From Colwellia sp. 75C3 (GTDB lineage: Bacteria; Pseudomonadota; Gammaproteobacteria; Enterobacterales; Alteromonadaceae): a stretch of 64,000 nucleotides of DNA. The translations under genes and the position numbers were made by a program. The notes below the pieces were generated by a model. It saw only the letters and a program-made list of their open reading frames with translations, was not told the origin of the DNA and made no database searches. Every line of letters begins with the position of its first letter. Position 1 is the stretch's first letter. Below, piece by piece: positions 35,968-53,205 of this stretch. The DNA is taken from contig NZ_PJAU01000050.1 in assembly GCF_002836255.1 (NCBI RefSeq), positions 1-64,000 on the forward strand, in the 5' to 3' direction.

Positions 35968-36360
35968 ATGCTTAATTTTAAGCAGCAACAAGCTGAGCAC
36001 TATTTACTAAATAAAGTTGAAACCACGTTAGACTTTCCTTTTGGTGACGATGTTAAAGTCTTTAAAGTGAAAAACAAAATGTTTGCTACTTTGGCCATTG
36101 GAAAAATGGGCAAGGGTGATGGAGATAAACAAGACTGGTGGATGAACTTAAAGTGCGATCCAGATGAAGCTGTTATGTTACGTGATATATTTTCGTCAGT
36201 GGTTCCTGGCTATCACATGAACAAGCGTTTGTGGATCACAGTCATTTTAGATGGTTCAATTCCTCAAGGTGAGATTGAGCGAATGATGGATAACTCGTTT
36301 AAGTTAGTAGTCAGTAAAATGACCAAGAAAGATCAACAGTCTATCTTGGTGCACTTTTAA
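35968..36360 (+). CDS. YjbR/MmcQ-family protein (intact copy)
   Basis: 130-residue protein of the YjbR/MmcQ fold, a CyaY-like alpha/beta family whose DNA-binding label has little functional proof. Family features are the N-terminal LLNKVETTLDFPFGDDVKVFKV, a central WWMNLKCDPDEA and the C-terminal GYHMNKRLWITVIL, then MMDNSFKLVVSKM. AAGGAT lies seven bases before the start. Its last 47 codons (36217-36360) recur as five fragments at about 41.5, 44.5, 47.9, 53.1 and 57.2 kb, all on this strand. It ends five bases from the convergent glucosylglycerate phosphorylase gene. Confidence 0.88.
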   Translation: MLNFKQQQAEHYLLNKVETTLDFPFGDDVKVFKVKNKMFATLAIGKMGKGDGDKQDWWMNLKCDPDEAVMLRDIFSSVVPGYHMNKRLWITVILDGSIPQGEIERMMDNSFKLVVSKMTKKDQQSILVHF

Positions 36361-41522: not shown

Positions 41523-41672
41523 ATGAATAGAAGATTTTGTAATACCGTGATTCTTGACAACCCAATCCGAACAACTGAGCTTGAGGTGATGATTGATAAC
41601 TCATTTAAGTTAGTCGTCAGTAAAGTGACCAAGAAAGATCAGCAGTCTATTCTTTTGCATATAGGCAGTTAG
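41523..41672 (+). pseudogene. yjbR 3'-end remnant 1
   Basis: An open frame of 49 codons reads MNRRFCNTVILD, then IDNSFKLVVSKVTKKDQQS and ends LLHIGS. It matches the last 47 residues of the intact yjbR product and begins at the same methionine codon. Upstream bases (TTTTTAGTGCAACGATAG) share nothing with the intact gene. Many differences are at third codon positions. It ends 21 bases from the convergent GGDEF-EAL gene. Confidence 0.9.
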
Positions 41673-44469: not shown

Positions 44470-44597
44470 GTGAACAATTATGGCTCAATTTCACAAACTA
44501 TTTTTACCTTAAGTTATTGAGCCTATGAAAGATAACTCATCAGCGTTGGATATTGGAAAATGACCAAGAAAGAAAAAGCATCTCTCTTGGTGCATGT
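44470..44597 (+). pseudogene. yjbR 3'-end remnant 2 (frameshifted)
   Basis: The firm match is 44516-44594: ATTGAGC, GATAACTC, AAAATGACCAAGAAAGA and TCTTGGTGCAT occur in the order and spacing of the yjbR 3' end, with one base lost between GATAACTC and AAAATGACC. The 5' part (GTGAACAA, TTATGG, CTCAATT) is a weaker match and suggests the copy again begins at the MNKRLW codons. It ends close to the convergent hydrolase gene. Confidence 0.75.
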
Positions 44598-46124: not shown

Positions 46125-46233
46125 GAACTTTCCTTTAAATAGAGTGTGTTTTCTGGAATCATTAAATCCGCTTATTTAGACTAATGCATGTTATATTCCG
46201 TTAAGTGCATCATTTTTATGGGTAAAACGTATG

Positions 46234-46263
46234 AGCGGTATGAAAAAACCGATAAGCGGTATG
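46234..46263 (+). promoter_or_regulatory. LytTR-type direct repeat (9-12-9)
   Basis: AGCGGTATG occurs at 46234-46242 and again, identical, at 46255-46263: two 9-bp repeats with a 12-bp spacer, a 21-bp period. LytTR proteins such as AgrA and AlgR bind paired 9-bp repeats with this spacing. The site ends 11 bases before the start chosen for the LytTR gene, so binding could block its expression or act on the divergent hydrolase. Confidence 0.55.
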
Positions 46264-46274
46264 GTGATTTAATA

Positions 46275-47810
46275 ATGAAAAAGGTAATTTTTAGCGGTAT
46301 TCTTTGTTTATTGCTGTTTTTTATCAGCGTAAACAAGGTTTATGCTCAATCAATTATTTCAATTGATAATGAATCGATTGTTGTTTGCTTGGCAATATCG
46401 GCCTTTACGACACCACCTACTTTTGATGAAGATAATTGTCATAGCCAACATTTATCTACCGTTGATCCTCAAAACAAAGCTATTTGGTTGAAAGCCAACT
46501 TACCTGTAACGCAACGTTACTTACAACGGCAGCAACCCTCGGGTTTATTTGTTTTTGCTAAGATGTCGAGCGAAGTGTTTTTTAATGGCCAGCGACTGGG
46601 TAATAACGGCACACCAGATGTACTTTCAAATAAAGAGTTTGTCGGTCAAATGGATGTCAGGTTTTATGTGCCGCCCAAGTTAATCAAGCAAGGTGATAAT
46701 GAGGTTATTATTTATGCTTCTTCACATCACGGCTTTATATCGTTAGCAAGCCCAATTCATTTTATTGGCTTAGCTGAATACGACGACCCACAGTCATTTT
46801 TCCAACGTGATTTATGGCTTTTATTAAGTTTATTAGGTGCGTTATTATTGGGGAGTATTGCGTTAGCAACCATCGCATTTCAATCGGAAGATAAAAAAAG
46901 CACACTGCTACTGTTACTTATGGCGGTGTTATCCAGTGGGCAATTATTTATTGAAGTTAGTCGAGCGCTGTTTAGCTATAGTTACCCTTTTCAGGATTTA
47001 AGATTAATCACTATAACGTTGTTCGCTTTAGGTTTTGGTTTTAGTTTTTTGGCTTTTTCACTTCAAAAATATAATAGCTCACACACTAAAACTTGGTTGT
47101 TAAGTACATTGTTATTAAGCATGTTAGCGGTAACGTTAATTCCGGGTTTTGACGGAAAGACCGCAATGGCTATTTTGGTTCCCACCTTAAATAGTTTGAT
47201 ATTTATCAGCGCTAAATACTTTAAAGAACGCGATAAAAAATTATTAACCGTGGTATGTATTTACGCTTTTTTCTCACTGAGCATAGTACTGACGTTTTCT
47301 TCTTTTCATGCTAATTATTTTTACTACATTGTTACGGCAATGATAACTTTCTTCGTCATTAATAAAGCCAATGAGCTAGTTAAAGAAAAATATCTTAGAA
47401 AAAAAGAAAGTGAACAAGTATTAAAGTTACAGCTGAAGTTAGAGCAAATTCAGCAAAAAAGTACGCCGACAAAATTAAAGTTAACCAGTGCAGGAAAAAC
47501 TGAATTCCTACTTACCCAAGATGTTGAATATTGCAAAGCTGCCGGCGATTATGTTGAAATCTTCCTTGTTAATAAACAGCTCTCTTTATTTAGTGGTACG
47601 TTAAAAGCCATAGAGGAACAATTACCTGCAACGTTTATCAAGGTGCATCGTTCTTATATTGTTAATTTAGAACAAGTCGTTTCAATCTTGTCTAATAAGC
47701 AAGGAGCGACAAGTGGTGGATTGTTAATGTTACAAACAGGTGCTGAAGTTCCCGTTAGTCGAAGAATACTACCAAGGGTACGAGAGGTAGTGAAAGGCAA
47801 TGTGGAATGA
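46275..47810 (+). CDS. Membrane-bound LytTR transcriptional regulator
   Basis: Starting at ATG 46275 gives a signal peptide (MKKVIFSGILCLLLFFISVN), a periplasmic domain (about residues 25-175), roughly seven membrane helices (about 180-375), a short coiled coil and a C-terminal LytTR DNA-binding domain (about 400-505, with VEYCKAAGDYVEIF and FIKVHRSYIVNL). The frame is open 87 bases upstream, but that would bury the signal peptide and place the direct repeat inside the gene. The layout suggests a one-component sensor-regulator tethered to the inner membrane. Confidence 0.85.
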   Translation: MKKVIFSGILCLLLFFISVNKVYAQSIISIDNESIVVCLAISAFTTPPTFDEDNCHSQHLSTVDPQNKAIWLKANLPVTQRYLQRQQPSGLFVFAKMSSEVFFNGQRLGNNGTPDVLSNKEFVGQMDVRFYVPPKLIKQGDNEVIIYASSHHGFISLASPIHFIGLAEYDDPQSFFQRDLWLLLSLLGALLLGSIALATIAFQSEDKKSTLLLLLMAVLSSGQLFIEVSRALFSYSYPFQDLRLITITLFALGFGFSFLAFSLQKYNSSHTKTWLLSTLLLSMLAVTLIPGFDGKTAMAILVPTLNSLIFISAKYFKERDKKLLTVVCIYAFFSLSIVLTFSSFHANYFYYIVTAMITFFVINKANELVKEKYLRKKESEQVLKLQLKLEQIQQKSTPTKLKLTSAGKTEFLLTQDVEYCKAAGDYVEIFLVNKQLSLFSGTLKAIEEQLPATFIKVHRSYIVNLEQVVSILSNKQGATSGGLLMLQTGAEVPVSRRILPRVREVVKGNVE

Positions 47811-47879
47811 GAAAACAATGAAGTGAATGGTTATGCGATCCAAGTAATAACAATAATTATCAGATATATAGGTAGTCTA

Positions 47880-47999
47880 GTGATTGTTGGTGACTCAATT
47901 ATAAAAGGGTAGAACGTTCGTATGATGGGTAACTCGTTTAAGTTGGTGATGAGGAAAATGACCAAGAAAGATCAGCCATCAATTTTGACACATTTGTAA
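47880..47999 (+). pseudogene. yjbR 3'-end remnant 3
   Basis: From ATG 47922 it reads MMGNSFKLVMRKMTKKDQPS and ends ILTHL and a stop, matching MMDNSFKLVVSKMTKKDQQSILVHF. Before that, GATTG and GACTCAATT, then CGTTCGTATGATG, preserve the preceding codons with small indels. It lies 70 bases downstream of the LytTR gene, on the same strand. Confidence 0.85.
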
Positions 48000-48025
48000 T
48001 GTACTATCCCTTAGGCCTTCATACC

Positions 48026-48057
48026 AAAAAGCACCAAACTTGTGAATGGTGCTTTTT
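48026..48057. terminator. Bidirectional terminator
   Basis: AAAAAGCACC and GGTGCTTTTT form a perfect 10-bp stem with a 12-nt loop between the yjbR remnant and the convergent lipoprotein gene. Confidence 0.85.
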
Positions 48058-48093
48058 GTAAATTGGCATAATTAAGCCGTTACTTAAATATGC

Positions 48094-49698
48094 CTAGTGG
48101 TAGGTAATAGTAAATACCGAGACTGGTGGAACAGGCTCTTCATTTTCATGGTCACCTAAAATATAGACTTGCCCATCTCTTATCGCTAAATCACTCGGGT
48201 CAGTAACATCTTCATTATCTAGATCAAATACCGCGATAATTTCACCGACTAAGTTTAGTTGAATTACCTTAGTAAATGTTTCAGATAAAACATAAACATG
48301 ACCATCACTATATTGAACACCTTGTGCATCGTAAGCAAAAATACTGCCATTGGTTTCTTCAGGGAAAGTAATATCGTGTTTTTCTTTTAAGGAGAAGTCA
48401 CGGTTCAAAATGATTAATACATCTTTATCGTCTTCATTACCTTGGTCAGGCACTAAGAAGTATTCCCCTGAACTTTCATCCTTTCCTAAGCCGGAATAAC
48501 GATAGCCATGACCATCATCATTCTTTACATCAATGTGATGTTCTTTTGTTAACTCATAGACATCGTTGACTTTATTAAACTGTCCAACTAAACCCGTATC
48601 CGTTAAGGCGAAAAATTCATCTACGCCGCCCACAATGGCTTCAGTACAGCCTTGATTACAGTTAATACTGTCAAAATTAATTTCAACACGTGATGTTTTA
48701 TTGAAGTCACTATCAAGGGTAAACATTTCTGCTTGGTCAGTAATTATCATCCAAGTATCATCAAACATTGACCAAATACCTGATGGCTGCACGATGTCTT
48801 CAGATAATGGATATTGTGCAACTAAGGTTAACTCACCGCTATCTTCAATCGGTCCTGCGCCAATGAGATCGTCTTTATCCATAACTAAGTAAATATTATT
48901 TTCTATATCACTGGTTGAAACGGCAATACGGCCATCGGGCATTAAGCTAATATCATTAAAGGCTGTTGTCTCAAAGCCTTCTAAGTACCAAGAGTCGTTG
49001 TGCGTTAATGTAGAACCCTCGGCCTCGTAAAGCATTACCATGTCGTTGTTGTCAGCTTCGGCTAATAAGAAAAATTTCTCTTCAGTAATCGAGATGCCGT
49101 TAACGGCAATATCTGCGGTTAATTCATAGTTAATTGATTGCTCAGTTTCTGCATTGAAATGTACTAATTGATGGGCTACTTGGTCATATAACCAAATGTT
49201 TTTATTGCCTTCTTCATCAAGCGTAAGCTCGGTAAACTCTGCACCTTCGTTTACAGTCCATTGGGTGGTTTTGTCTGTACTACGATTATATTGAGAAAGT
49301 ACATTGTCACCCGAGACAAACCAAATGAGATCTTCCTGACGTTCAAGGTCTACCGCGTTCATTGCTTCGTTCGACTGTTGTGCTACGGAGTGATAAAACA
49401 ACTCATTTGAATCACCATCTATAAAACCGTACTCTTTATTTGCTTGGTGTATATCAAACATTGGCCAATTGATATCTATGCTAGTAATCGCATCAACTAC
49501 CTGCTCTTCTTCAGGGTAGGTTACGTACATGGCTAATGGAAAGTCATCTACCATAGAAGAGCCTTCAATGGGCAAAACTAATTCAAGTGCTGGGTTAGTT
49601 GGCACTGGCGTTATAGGGGTAGTACTTGAATCATCATCACTATCACATGCAGATAAAAGTGAGATAAGAGATAGGGCTATTAGTGATTTTTTAAACAT
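48094..49698 (-). CDS. Lipoprotein with beta-propeller (SdiA-regulated-like) domain
   Basis: Lipobox LLSAC puts the lipidated cysteine at residue 18, followed by an acidic, threonine-rich linker. The rest (534 residues in all) is a repeat-rich propeller. The C-terminal third (SGLGKDESSGEYFLVPDQ, KEKHDITFPEET, DPSDLAIRDGQVYILGD) resembles SdiA-regulated domains. No enzymatic motif is visible. A TTGACA-N5-TTGACA box lies about 47-63 bases upstream of its start, the same box found before the LpxO-like gene and the response regulator, suggesting common control. Confidence 0.75.
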   Translation of the reverse strand: MFKKSLIALSLISLLSACDSDDDSSTTPITPVPTNPALELVLPIEGSSMVDDFPLAMYVTYPEEEQVVDAITSIDINWPMFDIHQANKEYGFIDGDSNELFYHSVAQQSNEAMNAVDLERQEDLIWFVSGDNVLSQYNRSTDKTTQWTVNEGAEFTELTLDEEGNKNIWLYDQVAHQLVHFNAETEQSINYELTADIAVNGISITEEKFFLLAEADNNDMVMLYEAEGSTLTHNDSWYLEGFETTAFNDISLMPDGRIAVSTSDIENNIYLVMDKDDLIGAGPIEDSGELTLVAQYPLSEDIVQPSGIWSMFDDTWMIITDQAEMFTLDSDFNKTSRVEINFDSINCNQGCTEAIVGGVDEFFALTDTGLVGQFNKVNDVYELTKEHHIDVKNDDGHGYRYSGLGKDESSGEYFLVPDQGNEDDKDVLIILNRDFSLKEKHDITFPEETNGSIFAYDAQGVQYSDGHVYVLSETFTKVIQLNLVGEIIAVFDLDNEDVTDPSDLAIRDGQVYILGDHENEEPVPPVSVFTITYH

Positions 49699-49743
49699 TG
49701 TTTTTGCTCCGTAATATTTTGTACTGCAACAGTAGCAAGGCGG

Positions 49744-49765
49744 TTGTCAACGATGTGTCAATGGC
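49744..49765 (-). promoter_or_regulatory. OmpR-type tandem box upstream of the lipoprotein gene
   Basis: In the direction of transcription it reads ATTGACACATCGTTGACAA: two TTGACA half-sites 11 bp apart (TGTCAA at 49745-49750 and 49756-49761 on the + strand). The same box, in the same orientation relative to the gene, precedes the LpxO-like gene and the response regulator. Confidence 0.6.
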
Positions 49766-49804
49766 TTTTGTAAATACTGTATTTTTATTATTAAAAGGTA
49801 GATA

Positions 49805-49838
49805 CAAAAAAAGCCCGTACTGCTAAAGCAACACGGGC
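49805..49838 (-). terminator. Terminator of the LpxO-like gene
   Basis: On the minus strand GCCCGTG and ACGGGC close a stem that also pairs TGCT with AGCA, followed by a run of seven T. It lies about 50 bases after the stop codon of the hydroxylase gene. Confidence 0.85.
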
Positions 49839-49887
49839 AAGGGGGAAAACGGTAGTGAGTTAAATGACAATACTCGCTATTTTCAGC

Positions 49888-50856
49888 TTAAAAAAGGGCG
49901 AGTAACATGGTGATTACACTGATTATTAAGCTTAATAAGAGTAAAAGTAACATAGTATTAAACAACCACTTTATCGGGTAATAAACACGGGGTTTTTTCT
50001 TTTTAAGTTGTTTAGCTGAGGCTAAAAATGGCGTAACTTTAGCAAACAATTTGTTCACAATACCCGCTTGGTCTCCTTCTATATTCGGTACCAACATTTG
50101 TGTAATGAGCTTTTTGTAAAAAAAGTTGATGAGCTTGCCAAAGATGTTCATTGGTCTTTCTACATCACACATAAGAATGAGTCGGGTTTCATCGGTGTTA
50201 TTTTCTACATAGTGTAAATAAGTTTCATCAAACATGAAGGCTTCACCATTGCGCCATGATTGACTCTTACCATCAACATTAATAAAACACTGGTCACTAT
50301 TTGGTGTATCTAAAGCCAGATGATATCTTAATGAACAAGCTGCGGGATCTAAGTGTCGAGTTAATTTAGAGCGTGGCGGTAATACGGTAAACATGGCACC
50401 ATTAATCGCCGGGATTTTATTGATTAACGCGACAGTATTAGGGCAGTGTGCTAATGCTGAATTAAGTGTTGTGCCATACCAAGTACAATAAAATTTACTC
50501 CAACCATACTTATAAAAAGTGCGAAAGCCGACATCATAAAAGCTATCATTTTGCTTATTGGTGGTTTGCTCAAAATAGCCATTGTCTAATAACGCCTTAG
50601 CTTCTTTAGCGATCACTTGCCAGTTATCTTCAAGCATCGTTAAATGATCAAAATGACTGGTTTTAATGAAAGGAGTAGATGCCCACTTTTTAGTTGCCAT
50701 ATATAACATTACGTTAAGCGGCGCAAAAATAGGCCAGCCTTTTCGTAAATATTCTACAGCACTCGCAAATTTTACAGCGCCTCTGAAATGGTAAACATAG
50801 ATGGCGGAGCAAATAGAAAACAAGACTAATAGCATTGTGATGGTATTAACATTCAT
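49888..50856 (-). CDS. Aspartyl/asparaginyl beta-hydroxylase family, LpxO-like lipid A hydroxylase
   Basis: 322 residues with a membrane helix at each end (residues 5-24 and about 298-320). The central Fe(II)/2-oxoglutarate dioxygenase domain shows PPRSKLTRHLDPA, SLRYHLAL, FDETYLHYVEN and a following arginine (ETRLILMCDV). These match LpxO, which hydroxylates the secondary acyl chain of lipid A. The divergent two-component system and shared operator suggest envelope-stress control of lipid A. The substrate is inferred. Confidence 0.82.
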   Translation of the reverse strand: MNVNTITMLLVLFSICSAIYVYHFRGAVKFASAVEYLRKGWPIFAPLNVMLYMATKKWASTPFIKTSHFDHLTMLEDNWQVIAKEAKALLDNGYFEQTTNKQNDSFYDVGFRTFYKYGWSKFYCTWYGTTLNSALAHCPNTVALINKIPAINGAMFTVLPPRSKLTRHLDPAACSLRYHLALDTPNSDQCFINVDGKSQSWRNGEAFMFDETYLHYVENNTDETRLILMCDVERPMNIFGKLINFFYKKLITQMLVPNIEGDQAGIVNKLFAKVTPFLASAKQLKKKKPRVYYPIKWLFNTMLLLLLLSLIISVITMLLALF

Positions 50857-50905
50857 GGCTTTAATTACGTGTAGCTTAATAGAGGTACACAGTGTAAAAG
50901 TTAGC

Positions 50906-50971
50906 TTGTCAATAAAGTGTCAATGCTACGGGCTTAACGAAGGGCGTTAAGCATTGACACTTTATCGACAA
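50906..50971. promoter_or_regulatory. Large palindrome with two inverted OmpR-type boxes
   Basis: Arms 50906-50927 and 50950-50971 are complementary at 21 of 22 positions, with an inner CTTAACG/CGTTAAG pair. Each arm holds a tandem box: ATTGACACTTTATTGACAA facing the LpxO-like gene and ATTGACACTTTATCGACAA facing the response regulator. A TATTAT at 50981-50986 could be the -10 box of the regulator operon. Most likely it is the autoregulatory, divergent operator of the adjacent response regulator. Confidence 0.65.
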
Positions 50972-51059
50972 AGCGTTCTGTATTATATTTTAACTAGCCT
51001 AGCAAACTTATGCTTTAGCTAAATATAATGCTGTTGATGAATACACTCAAAGGAAAAAC

Positions 51060-51785
51060 ATGGCTTCTCCAATCGCTACAATGCGCGTATTAATCGCGGA
51101 AGATAATTTAGATATTGCTGAAAATATTGGCGATTTTTTAGAGATGAATGGTCATCATGTCGATTATGCTTATGATGGTTTAATGGCTGTTGAGCTCTTT
51201 AATCAGCATGATTTTGATGTCGTGGTGATGGATATAATGATGCCTAAAGTCGACGGCCTTAAAGCCACTGAACAAATTAGGCAAAGCCCCCGAGGTGATG
51301 TACCTATTATTATGCTAACTGCTAAAGATACTTTAGCGGAGAAATTAGACGGTTTTACGGCTGGCGCGGATGATTATCTTGTGAAGCCTTTTGCTATGCC
51401 AGAGCTTTATGCGCGCCTTCAAGCACAAGTGAGAAAGTCACAAACGAGTTACCACCACCAATTTTCGGTTGAAAATATTATGTTAGATCATAATGATAAG
51501 TCAGCCGCTATCAGTGGAAAGCCATTAGTGCTCAATCCAACAACGTTTAAAATCATGTGGCAACTTGCCAAGGCCTATCCAAACCTTGTCGCTAAAGCTG
51601 AGCTAGAATTTTTATTGTGGGGAGATTTACCTCCAGAGAACGATATTTTACGGAGCCATATTTATAACTTAAGGCAGTCACTGGCTAAATGTAATGATGA
51701 TATTTCAATACTTGCGAAACATGGGCAAGGTTATCAACTTGTTCTAAAAAATAAGCTCGCGAGTACGCATAAGTTGAGTAAATAA
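51060..51785 (+). CDS. OmpR/PhoB-family response regulator
   Basis: 241 residues. The receiver domain has the acidic pair in AEDN, phospho-acceptor Asp58 in VVMDIMMP, IIMLTAKD and LVKPFAMP. The C-terminal winged helix ends RSHIYNLRQSLAKC and GQGYQLVLK. It pairs with the histidine kinase gene starting one base after its stop. OmpR-family regulators bind tandem repeats 11 bp apart, as found in its own upstream region and before two neighbouring genes. Confidence 0.94.
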   Translation: MASPIATMRVLIAEDNLDIAENIGDFLEMNGHHVDYAYDGLMAVELFNQHDFDVVVMDIMMPKVDGLKATEQIRQSPRGDVPIIMLTAKDTLAEKLDGFTAGADDYLVKPFAMPELYARLQAQVRKSQTSYHHQFSVENIMLDHNDKSAAISGKPLVLNPTTFKIMWQLAKAYPNLVAKAELEFLLWGDLPPENDILRSHIYNLRQSLAKCNDDISILAKHGQGYQLVLKNKLASTHKLSK

Positions 51786-51786
51786 C

Positions 51787-53055
51787 ATGGTTCATTTAAG
51801 TTTAAGTCAGCGTGTTAAGGTGACCTTTATTACCAGCTTTATACTGTTATCATTGATTAGCTTAGTGCTACTTTTTGCGACGACTAAAGGCATAGAAGAC
51901 TATATTTTTGAGCGAGAGCTAATACTCAATATAGAGCAATATCAACAAGCTGAACGTCGTGGTGAAAAAACGCTATTACCCACCGTCATTACCGTTTATT
52001 CCGATGTGTCTGAACTACCTGATAATTTAGGGATATATATAGATGAAACGGCTATCGGTGTTTATGAGCTAGACCACCCCGAAGACTTAGATTACCACTA
52101 TGCTATTACAGAAAACGCAGCAAAAAATCAGCAAATATTTTTATTTGACGTTAATCGCATTGAGCTATCCGAAGACTTAGAGAGAGAAATGTTTAGGTAC
52201 TTGCTCATTGGTTTTATTGTGCTCTTTATTGTCTTCTTTTTAATTTTTCAATTAGTGGTTAAGCGCGCATTAGCCCCTATGTTTCAGTTGATTGAGCAAG
52301 TAAAGCAGCAAACATACCAACCTAAAACAAAACAAAATCATGATTTTAAATATCAGCATCCAGAAGATAATGAGCTAGGACTTTTATATAAAACATTTGG
52401 TGATTACAGTAAACGTATTGAAAAGTTTATTCAACGAGAGCAAGAGTTTTCAGGTTTTGCCAGTCATGAATTACGTACACCAGTTATGATCATTAAAGGC
52501 GCCACTGAGCTATTACAGTTACAGCAAGATGAATGTAAACACTTAGCCAAACCATTAGCGCGCATCGAAAGGGCAACCCACAGCATGGAAGGTATGATTG
52601 AAATGCTATTAAGTTTGTCACGAGAACAATATCGTACTCAATCTCAGTTACAGCCAATTGATGCAACATTTTCCCAAGTACTTCACTCTTTTAAAGAACA
52701 GGCGTTATTAAAAAGTAAAGTGGTACAGGTCGTCGGTGAATTATCATCCACTATTCAGATTGAGAAAATACCCGCTGAAATTATATTTTCTAATATTATT
52801 AAAAATGCCATTCAACATGCAACGGCTTCGGGTATCGAGATTAAGCTAACAGATAAAACATGCGTAATAAGTAATAGCGTTATGAAAGCGCAGCCAGGGC
52901 CTACTTCTTTGCCAGAACAAGGTTATGGTTTAGGAACATTGATTATTGAAAGGATTTGTTTACAGCATCATTGGCAATATAAGACATGGATTGACAATGA
53001 TCATTATTTCGTTGAAATTTCCTTTGATGAGCCTCAAGTTTTTAACTGTGTATAG
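51787..53055 (+). CDS. Sensor histidine kinase
   Basis: 422 residues with two membrane helices (about residues 12-32 and 135-157) around an acidic periplasmic loop (LSEDLEREM near its end). The dimerisation helix has phospho-accepting His227 in ASHELRTPVM. The ATPase domain has an N-box (IIKNAIQHAT) and a G-box (GYGLGTLIIERIC), but the D-box region is short. No HAMP domain is obvious. Linkage to an LpxO-like gene suggests a PmrB/PhoQ-like envelope sensor, an inference only. Confidence 0.9.
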   Translation: MVHLSLSQRVKVTFITSFILLSLISLVLLFATTKGIEDYIFERELILNIEQYQQAERRGEKTLLPTVITVYSDVSELPDNLGIYIDETAIGVYELDHPEDLDYHYAITENAAKNQQIFLFDVNRIELSEDLEREMFRYLLIGFIVLFIVFFLIFQLVVKRALAPMFQLIEQVKQQTYQPKTKQNHDFKYQHPEDNELGLLYKTFGDYSKRIEKFIQREQEFSGFASHELRTPVMIIKGATELLQLQQDECKHLAKPLARIERATHSMEGMIEMLLSLSREQYRTQSQLQPIDATFSQVLHSFKEQALLKSKVVQVVGELSSTIQIEKIPAEIIFSNIIKNAIQHATASGIEIKLTDKTCVISNSVMKAQPGPTSLPEQGYGLGTLIIERICLQHHWQYKTWIDNDHYFVEISFDEPQVFNCV

Positions 53056-53061
53056 TGAAGT

Positions 53062-53205
53062 ATGAATAAACGTTTATGGAATACAATCATTCTTGATTGC
53101 TCAATTCCCCAAGGTGAAATTGAGCGCATGATGGATAATTCGTTTAAGCTAGTGGTAAGTAAAATGACCAAGAAAGGTCAGCAGTCGATTTCTATTCATT
53201 ATTAA
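53062..53205 (+). pseudogene. yjbR 3'-end remnant 4 (open 47-codon frame)
   Basis: An uninterrupted frame MNKRLWNTIILDCSIPQGEI, then MMDNSFKLVVSKM through to a stop, is exactly the length of the C-terminal 47 residues of the intact yjbR product and begins at the same methionine. Most base changes are at third codon positions. It starts six bases after the histidine kinase stop with no good ribosome-binding site. Whether it is translated is unknown. Confidence 0.9.

Follow-up and report, generated by a model that had tools for sequence, protein, structure and literature searches.

ColR, an OmpR-family regulator, governs genes of the envelope, pagL among them (in P. putida, PagL and DgkA), and its published consensus, YYNASNNYTTTTTSAC, consists of two half-sites 11 bp apart, the second of which is TTSAC (PMC2689224). 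The ColR/ColS pair acts in lipid A remodelling, and ColS carries an ExxE motif just proximal to its second transmembrane helix, TM2 (PMC8306577). Tandem operators of similar layout include the cre/blr tag of CreB/BlrA, TTCAC-N6-TTCAC (PMC4689548), and the pho box, in which two direct-repeat units of 11 nt are bound head-to-tail (PMC4415409). A MipA barrel and a lipoprotein that have been proposed as polymyxin co-sensors are under the direct control of ParRS in P. aeruginosa (PMC10936184), and an envelope-stress regulon of Burkholderia also includes a MipA/OmpV gene (PMC9426598).

The window analysed here, a stretch of 64,000 nucleotides from Colwellia sp. 75C3, carries a two-component system that, as judged from its DNA sequence, very probably activates its own operon, an lpxO-like gene, a lipoprotein gene and a mipA gene through the operator TTGACA-N5-TTGACA. 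The genes of the module are:

48094 to 49698, minus strand: lipoprotein gene, 534 aa, lipobox LSAC-D (open reading frame)
49888 to 50856, minus strand: LpxO-like Fe/2OG hydroxylase, 322 aa (PF05118, 8.9e-47, profile positions 1-157 of 157)
51060 to 51785, plus strand: OmpR-family response regulator, 241 aa (PF00072, 7.6e-30; PF00486, 4.9e-10)
51787 to 53055, plus strand: sensor histidine kinase, 422 aa, two transmembrane helices (PF00512, HisKA; hydropathy)

The response regulator combines a receiver domain with a winged-helix Trans_reg_C domain, placing it in the OmpR/PhoB family. Neither it nor the kinase reaches any of the NCBIfam equivalog cut-offs shown, the regulator scoring below those for PmrA (127 of 330 bits), PhoP (97 of 336), QseB (110 of 345) and CpxR (109 of 341). 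The kinase has an ExxE motif (EDLE, 129-132) just before TM2, ExxE being a common word and weak evidence. The hydroxylase is the sole PF05118 gene in the genome and retains the HxD...H iron ligands (H168, D170 and H215). Its best NCBIfam match is LpxO, with 299.8 bits over nearly the full length; the 500-bit equivalog cut-off is not reached, and the enzyme is therefore named LpxO-like only. It presumably hydroxylates lipid A.

The lipoprotein has no Pfam or NCBIfam match, and homologues occur in only 2 of 394 other genomes of the order sample; the box was not found at the only other homologue, in G341. An earlier description of the protein as an exported propeller lipoprotein holds in part: the lipobox is there, and the AlphaFold model is all-beta (mean pLDDT 64, built on a three-sequence alignment), while a beta-propeller fold itself is plausible only. 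In E. coli, an Asp directly after the lipobox Cys is an inner-membrane retention signal. The lipoprotein has this Asp and so may be located close to the kinase, facing the periplasm. The module's immediate left-hand neighbour, at 46188-47810, encodes a membrane protein whose C-terminal domain is of the LytTR DNA-binding type (PF04397, 7.3e-19).

Upstream of the lipoprotein gene, the lpxO-like gene and the regulator gene lie the following elements:

49744 to 49762, minus strand: tandem box of the lipoprotein gene, ATTGACACATCGTTGACAA, unchanged in the Psychromonas contig
49729 to 49734, minus strand: TACTGT, -10-like hexamer, 10 nt past the lipoprotein box
50906 to 50924, minus strand: tandem box of the lpxO-like gene, ATTGACACTTTATTGACAA (sequence match)
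50891 to 50896, minus strand: TACACT, -10-like hexamer, 10 nt past the lpxO box
50953 to 50971, plus strand: tandem box of the response regulator, ATTGACACTTTATCGACAA (sequence match)
50981 to 50986, plus strand: TATTAT, -10-like hexamer, 10 nt past the regulator box

All three boxes have the coordinates and orientations that had been read for them, each directed at its own gene with an 11-bp period. The 22-bp inverted repeat with one mismatch that had also been described is present, its arms at 50906-50927 and 50950-50971 being identical at 21 of 22 bp. The lpxO and regulator boxes stand back to back, 28 bp apart, one for each divergent promoter. At every one of the three window boxes, exactly 10 nt separate the second half-site from a TANNNT hexamer, the position required of the -10 if an activator box takes the place of the -35 element. 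These hexamers are weak to moderate, with 3 to 5 of 6 consensus matches; such -10s fit an activated promoter and leave room for chance at single sites.

The first-pass annotation had counted three sites. All three are present, and the count was too low, as there are at least four. The third exact match in the genome (G000:C44:72373), far outside the window on another contig, precedes an ORF of the MipA/OmpV family (PF06629, 1.8e-31, 110.5 bits), and TAAGAT stands 10 nt past its second half-site; the spacing rule had been drawn from the three window sites before the sequence of this one was read. The box here is ATTGACAT, so the C after ATTGACA, which had been taken as fixed, varies. Of 38 congeners, 37 lack this mipA gene at E<=1e-10, and its homologues elsewhere are at most about 32% identical. 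Upstream of these distant homologues, TTSACR tandems appear in 4 of 8 cases (p<=0.005, mononucleotide shuffles), not all of them with the -10, a hint and nothing firmer that mipA control through TTSAC-reading regulators may predate the window module. Tandems resembling TTSACR-N5-TTSACR lie upstream of the mipA homologues at L226, L229, L230 and L233.

The evidential weight lies with exact half-sites combined with the -10. Loose forms of the box were rejected as evidence, their numbers being at chance level when one to three mismatches are allowed: ATTGACA-N5-TTGACAA with up to three mismatches gives 15 matches in the window against 13.8 expected, and TTGACA-N5-TTGACA, allowed one mismatch at most, is found 19 times genome-wide, its reversed pattern 32 times. 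Exact TTGACA-N5-TTGACA, by comparison, occurs three times in the 5.4-Mb genome, twice at the window locus, and exact ATTGACA-N5-TTGACAA has three genome matches against 0.15 expected. A composite of box plus -10, ATTGACANNNNRTYGACAA-N9-TANNNT, was scanned over the same 5.4 Mb. The first-pass annotation had proposed a genome scan as its check, and the box is indeed not frequent: the composite has four exact matches, none with one mismatch, one with two (inside a long reading frame) and 29 with three, the last a chance-level number, and its reversed control has 35 matches in all. Under a first-order Markov model of the window, 0.0026 exact matches are expected genome-wide, a somewhat flattering value in that the R, Y and TANNNT positions were picked knowing the sites. 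Within the window, composite matches with at most two mismatches average 0.04 over 100 dinucleotide shuffles. At the sequence level, the four-promoter regulon is thus well supported as real but unproven.

Comparison across lineages ties the box to its regulator. Among 395 genomes of the order, six contain the pattern TTGACA-N5-TTGACA-N10-TANNNT, and the reversed control gives four matches in all. Outside the two genomes that hold the module, the strict pattern has five matches in four genomes, and two of these five, in one genus of another family, directly precede an OmpR-family regulator 37-39% identical to the window regulator. Six orthologues of that other-genus regulator were found among 146 genomes of its family; in all six the box lies 118-130 bp upstream with TANNNT 10 nt on, and the intergenic DNA has otherwise diverged. 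The neighbours there are a TonB receptor and ExbBD/TonB-like genes. Since the neighbours differ, it is the regulator that the box follows, not a common group of targets. All ten promoters compared have TA...T at spacing 10, and no other spacing between 5 and 22 has it in more than one of them; half of the ten (mipA, G534, G479, G482 and G528, that is, mipA and four of the six regulator orthologues) were chosen without regard to this spacing.

The TTGACA form is known from only these two independent regulator lineages. Most other regulators of 38-46% identity, fetched by name, have no clear strict box upstream, and no LpxO or MipA gene stands beside the distant regulator homologues in the fetched loci. 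The regulators at L031 and L073 have TTCAC forms directed at the divergent gene. In G087 (L217, 8075), a perfect TTGACA-N5-TTGACA-N10-TANNNT precedes an operon for an efflux periplasmic adaptor and RND protein; a close relative of the window regulator was not found in that genome. A literature search on a TTGACA-type OmpR box returned no relevant match. The rarity of the box and its tie to a regulator in an independent lineage support what had been proposed from the window sequence, namely that the half-sites are tandem and OmpR-type, that the system regulates itself, and that the LpxO-like and lipoprotein genes are under its control.

The module may also have moved recently. The window regulator was not found in 38 congeners at E<=1e-56, and a protein 99% identical to it occurs in Psychromonas sp. 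Urea-02u-13, of another family, where DNA corresponding to 47925 to 53141 is 96% identical, the three boxes and their -10s are unchanged, and box, regulator and local targets occur together. This identity reflects either recent exchange or contamination, two origins that are not separable because nearly the whole 6.7-kb Psychromonas contig aligns to the window. Two partial repeats mark the module boundaries:

47856 to 47999, plus strand: partial yjbR 3'-end repeat, left boundary of the module
53062 to 53205, plus strand: partial yjbR 3'-end repeat, right boundary of the module

A full-length yjbR (PF04237) lies at 35968-36360, and partial copies of its 3' end, about 144 nt long, begin at 41523, 47856, 53062 and 57215, with a weaker one near 44555. 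Across 35968-57358 the partial copies are spaced 4-6 kb apart and each closes a segment of unrelated genes, the regulon module being one of these segments. In the Psychromonas contig the module is joined directly to the sulfatase segment, without the 53.1-57.3 kb region. The yjbR 3' end thus looks like an exchange hotspot, going by the arrangement of its copies. No yjbR repeats were found at the mipA locus.

The same genome encodes a paralogous regulator-kinase pair (C55:256787), whose regulator is 38% identical to that of the window. Its boxes, TTCACA-N5-TTCACA-N10-TANNNT, precede an ABC-transporter operon and the gene leading into the pair, which on our own reading of the sequence is probably PfpI/DJ-1-like:

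G000:C55:250622 and G000:C55:255471 (L203, 623 and 5472): paralogue box sites

A congener (G006, L201) and a genome from another family (G051, L202) have these genes too, flanked by comparable TTCAC boxes. The two systems share promoter geometry and, by sequence, autoregulation of the operon; they differ in that the paralogue has TTCACA half-sites and an ABC-transporter operon and a PfpI/DJ-1-like gene as targets. In the recognition-helix region, TTGACA readers have (E/D/N)(S/N)(D/N)-[I/P]-LR[S/T]HIY, and the three clearest TTCACA readers have SD-A-[L/M]RSHIYQLR. With two TTGACA lineages, we offer it only as a hypothesis that the difference between the half-sites tracks I/P versus A after the conserved D. 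Possible, though rather doubtful as a whole, is the further idea that an imported module would use a private TTGACA code, tracking the I/P-versus-A helix residue, to stay insulated from the host network and would capture the distant mipA gene through a single box. Paralogues whose operators differ by one base per half-site would offer a clean case for crosstalk avoidance by horizontally moved signalling.

In the mechanism that we propose, the kinase at 51787 would sense the condition of the envelope, metal ions or cationic compounds being possible signals, and would phosphorylate the regulator at 51060, which in its phosphorylated form would bind TTGACA-N5-TTGACA head-to-tail. If the -10 is taken to span about -12 to -7, the half-sites fall near -39 to -34 and -28 to -23; a usable -35 at 16-18 nt is absent from every promoter, and the half-sites would replace the missing element. 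Promoters served by class II activators, PhoB and PhoP among them, are built in this way, with half-sites upstream of a -10 and no -35; the pho box lies some 10 bp above the -10, in place of the -35. Activation is favoured because the promoters have this layout and no usable -35, and the regulator would accordingly be expected to work by class II activation, as PhoB or PhoP does. Its putative targets are its own operon, the divergent lpxO-like gene, the lipoprotein gene and the distant chromosomal mipA/ompV-family gene. Our best guess at the function is outer-membrane remodelling under envelope stress, in which MipA and the lipoprotein may serve as stress-coping or co-sensing parts. As a compact regulon of four promoters with a sharply defined box, the system makes binding and specificity directly testable.

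Activation by the neighbouring regulator has to be weighed against other readings of the same sites. Repression, including autorepression, is the likeliest of these and still unlikely: since the boxes extend over the -35 region, a protein bound there could obstruct RNA polymerase, yet the -10s have no usable -35 at a distance of 16-18 nt, so that the promoters would be poor when unassisted, and their arrangement matches that of class II activators. A second reading takes the words themselves at face value, TTGACA being the -35 consensus and the sites lying in promoters, so that these would be ordinary sigma-70 -35 elements and their tandem look incidental. The distances speak against it, as the two TTGACA words are 10 and 21 nt away from the hexamers instead of 16-18, and TA...T stands at spacers of 16-18 past the second half-site in no promoter; the tandem is, moreover, exact and rare. 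We regard this as very improbable.

Another resident regulator, either the C55 paralogue or the LytTR protein at 46188-47810, might bind the boxes and leave the neighbouring regulator uninvolved. The paralogue's boxes do share the geometry, and the LytTR protein is encoded next door; however, the paralogue's half-sites are TTCACA, one letter off in both halves, the TTGACA box precedes a homologous regulator in another genus with other adjacent genes, and the box travels with the module in Psychromonas. Such binding therefore seems improbable. The likeness of the lpxO and regulator boxes, with arms identical at 21 of 22 bp, could also stem merely from a recent inverted duplication of the promoter segment, but the sites at the lipoprotein gene, at mipA and in the other genus have nothing in common beyond half-sites and -10, their spacers and flanks being different, which leaves this account very little credence. 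Activation of the four promoters by the window regulator remains the preferred reading.

Set beside the described systems, the window pair resembles ColR/ColS of Pseudomonas (RaxR/RaxH of Xanthomonas) in being an OmpR-family pair with envelope genes, and its kinase is ColS-like in having ExxE just before TM2. Counted by eye, mismatches to the ColR consensus YYNASNNYTTTTTSAC number one in the lpxO box, two in the regulator box and three in the mipA box. Unlike the ColR operator, the boxes here have TTGACA in both half-sites, and the central T-tract is missing at two of four sites. The targets differ as well: an LpxO-like gene, MipA and a propeller-like lipoprotein here, with no lpxE or eptA alongside. 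An lpxE ortholog divergent from the pair, as in ColRS, was not found; the divergent gene is LpxO-like.

The CreB/BlrA tag shares the 11-bp period and the TTSAC core, whereas the window regulator reaches 102.3 bits against the NCBIfam CreB cut-off of 273, and no creD was recognised among the window ORFs around the module. PhoB likewise uses 11-nt tandem units, but its half-sites are CTGTCAT, and the window regulator scores 132 bits against the PhoB cut-off of 296. ParRS-mipBA offers a two-component system with a MipA outer-membrane barrel and a lipoprotein, as here; MipB, however, is a beta-lactamase-fold lipoprotein encoded beside mipA, whereas the lipoprotein here is all-beta by prediction and mipA lies on a distant contig.

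Control of this kind is already known; what would be new, and is as yet unproven, is this example and the one-base operator difference between paralogues. By analogy, the window system resembles ColRS or ParRS in how it would work, ColR being likened through its published consensus. One sensor would thereby be tied to an LpxO-like lipid modification, a MipA-family barrel and an all-beta lipoprotein, in parallel with ParRS-MipA co-sensing.
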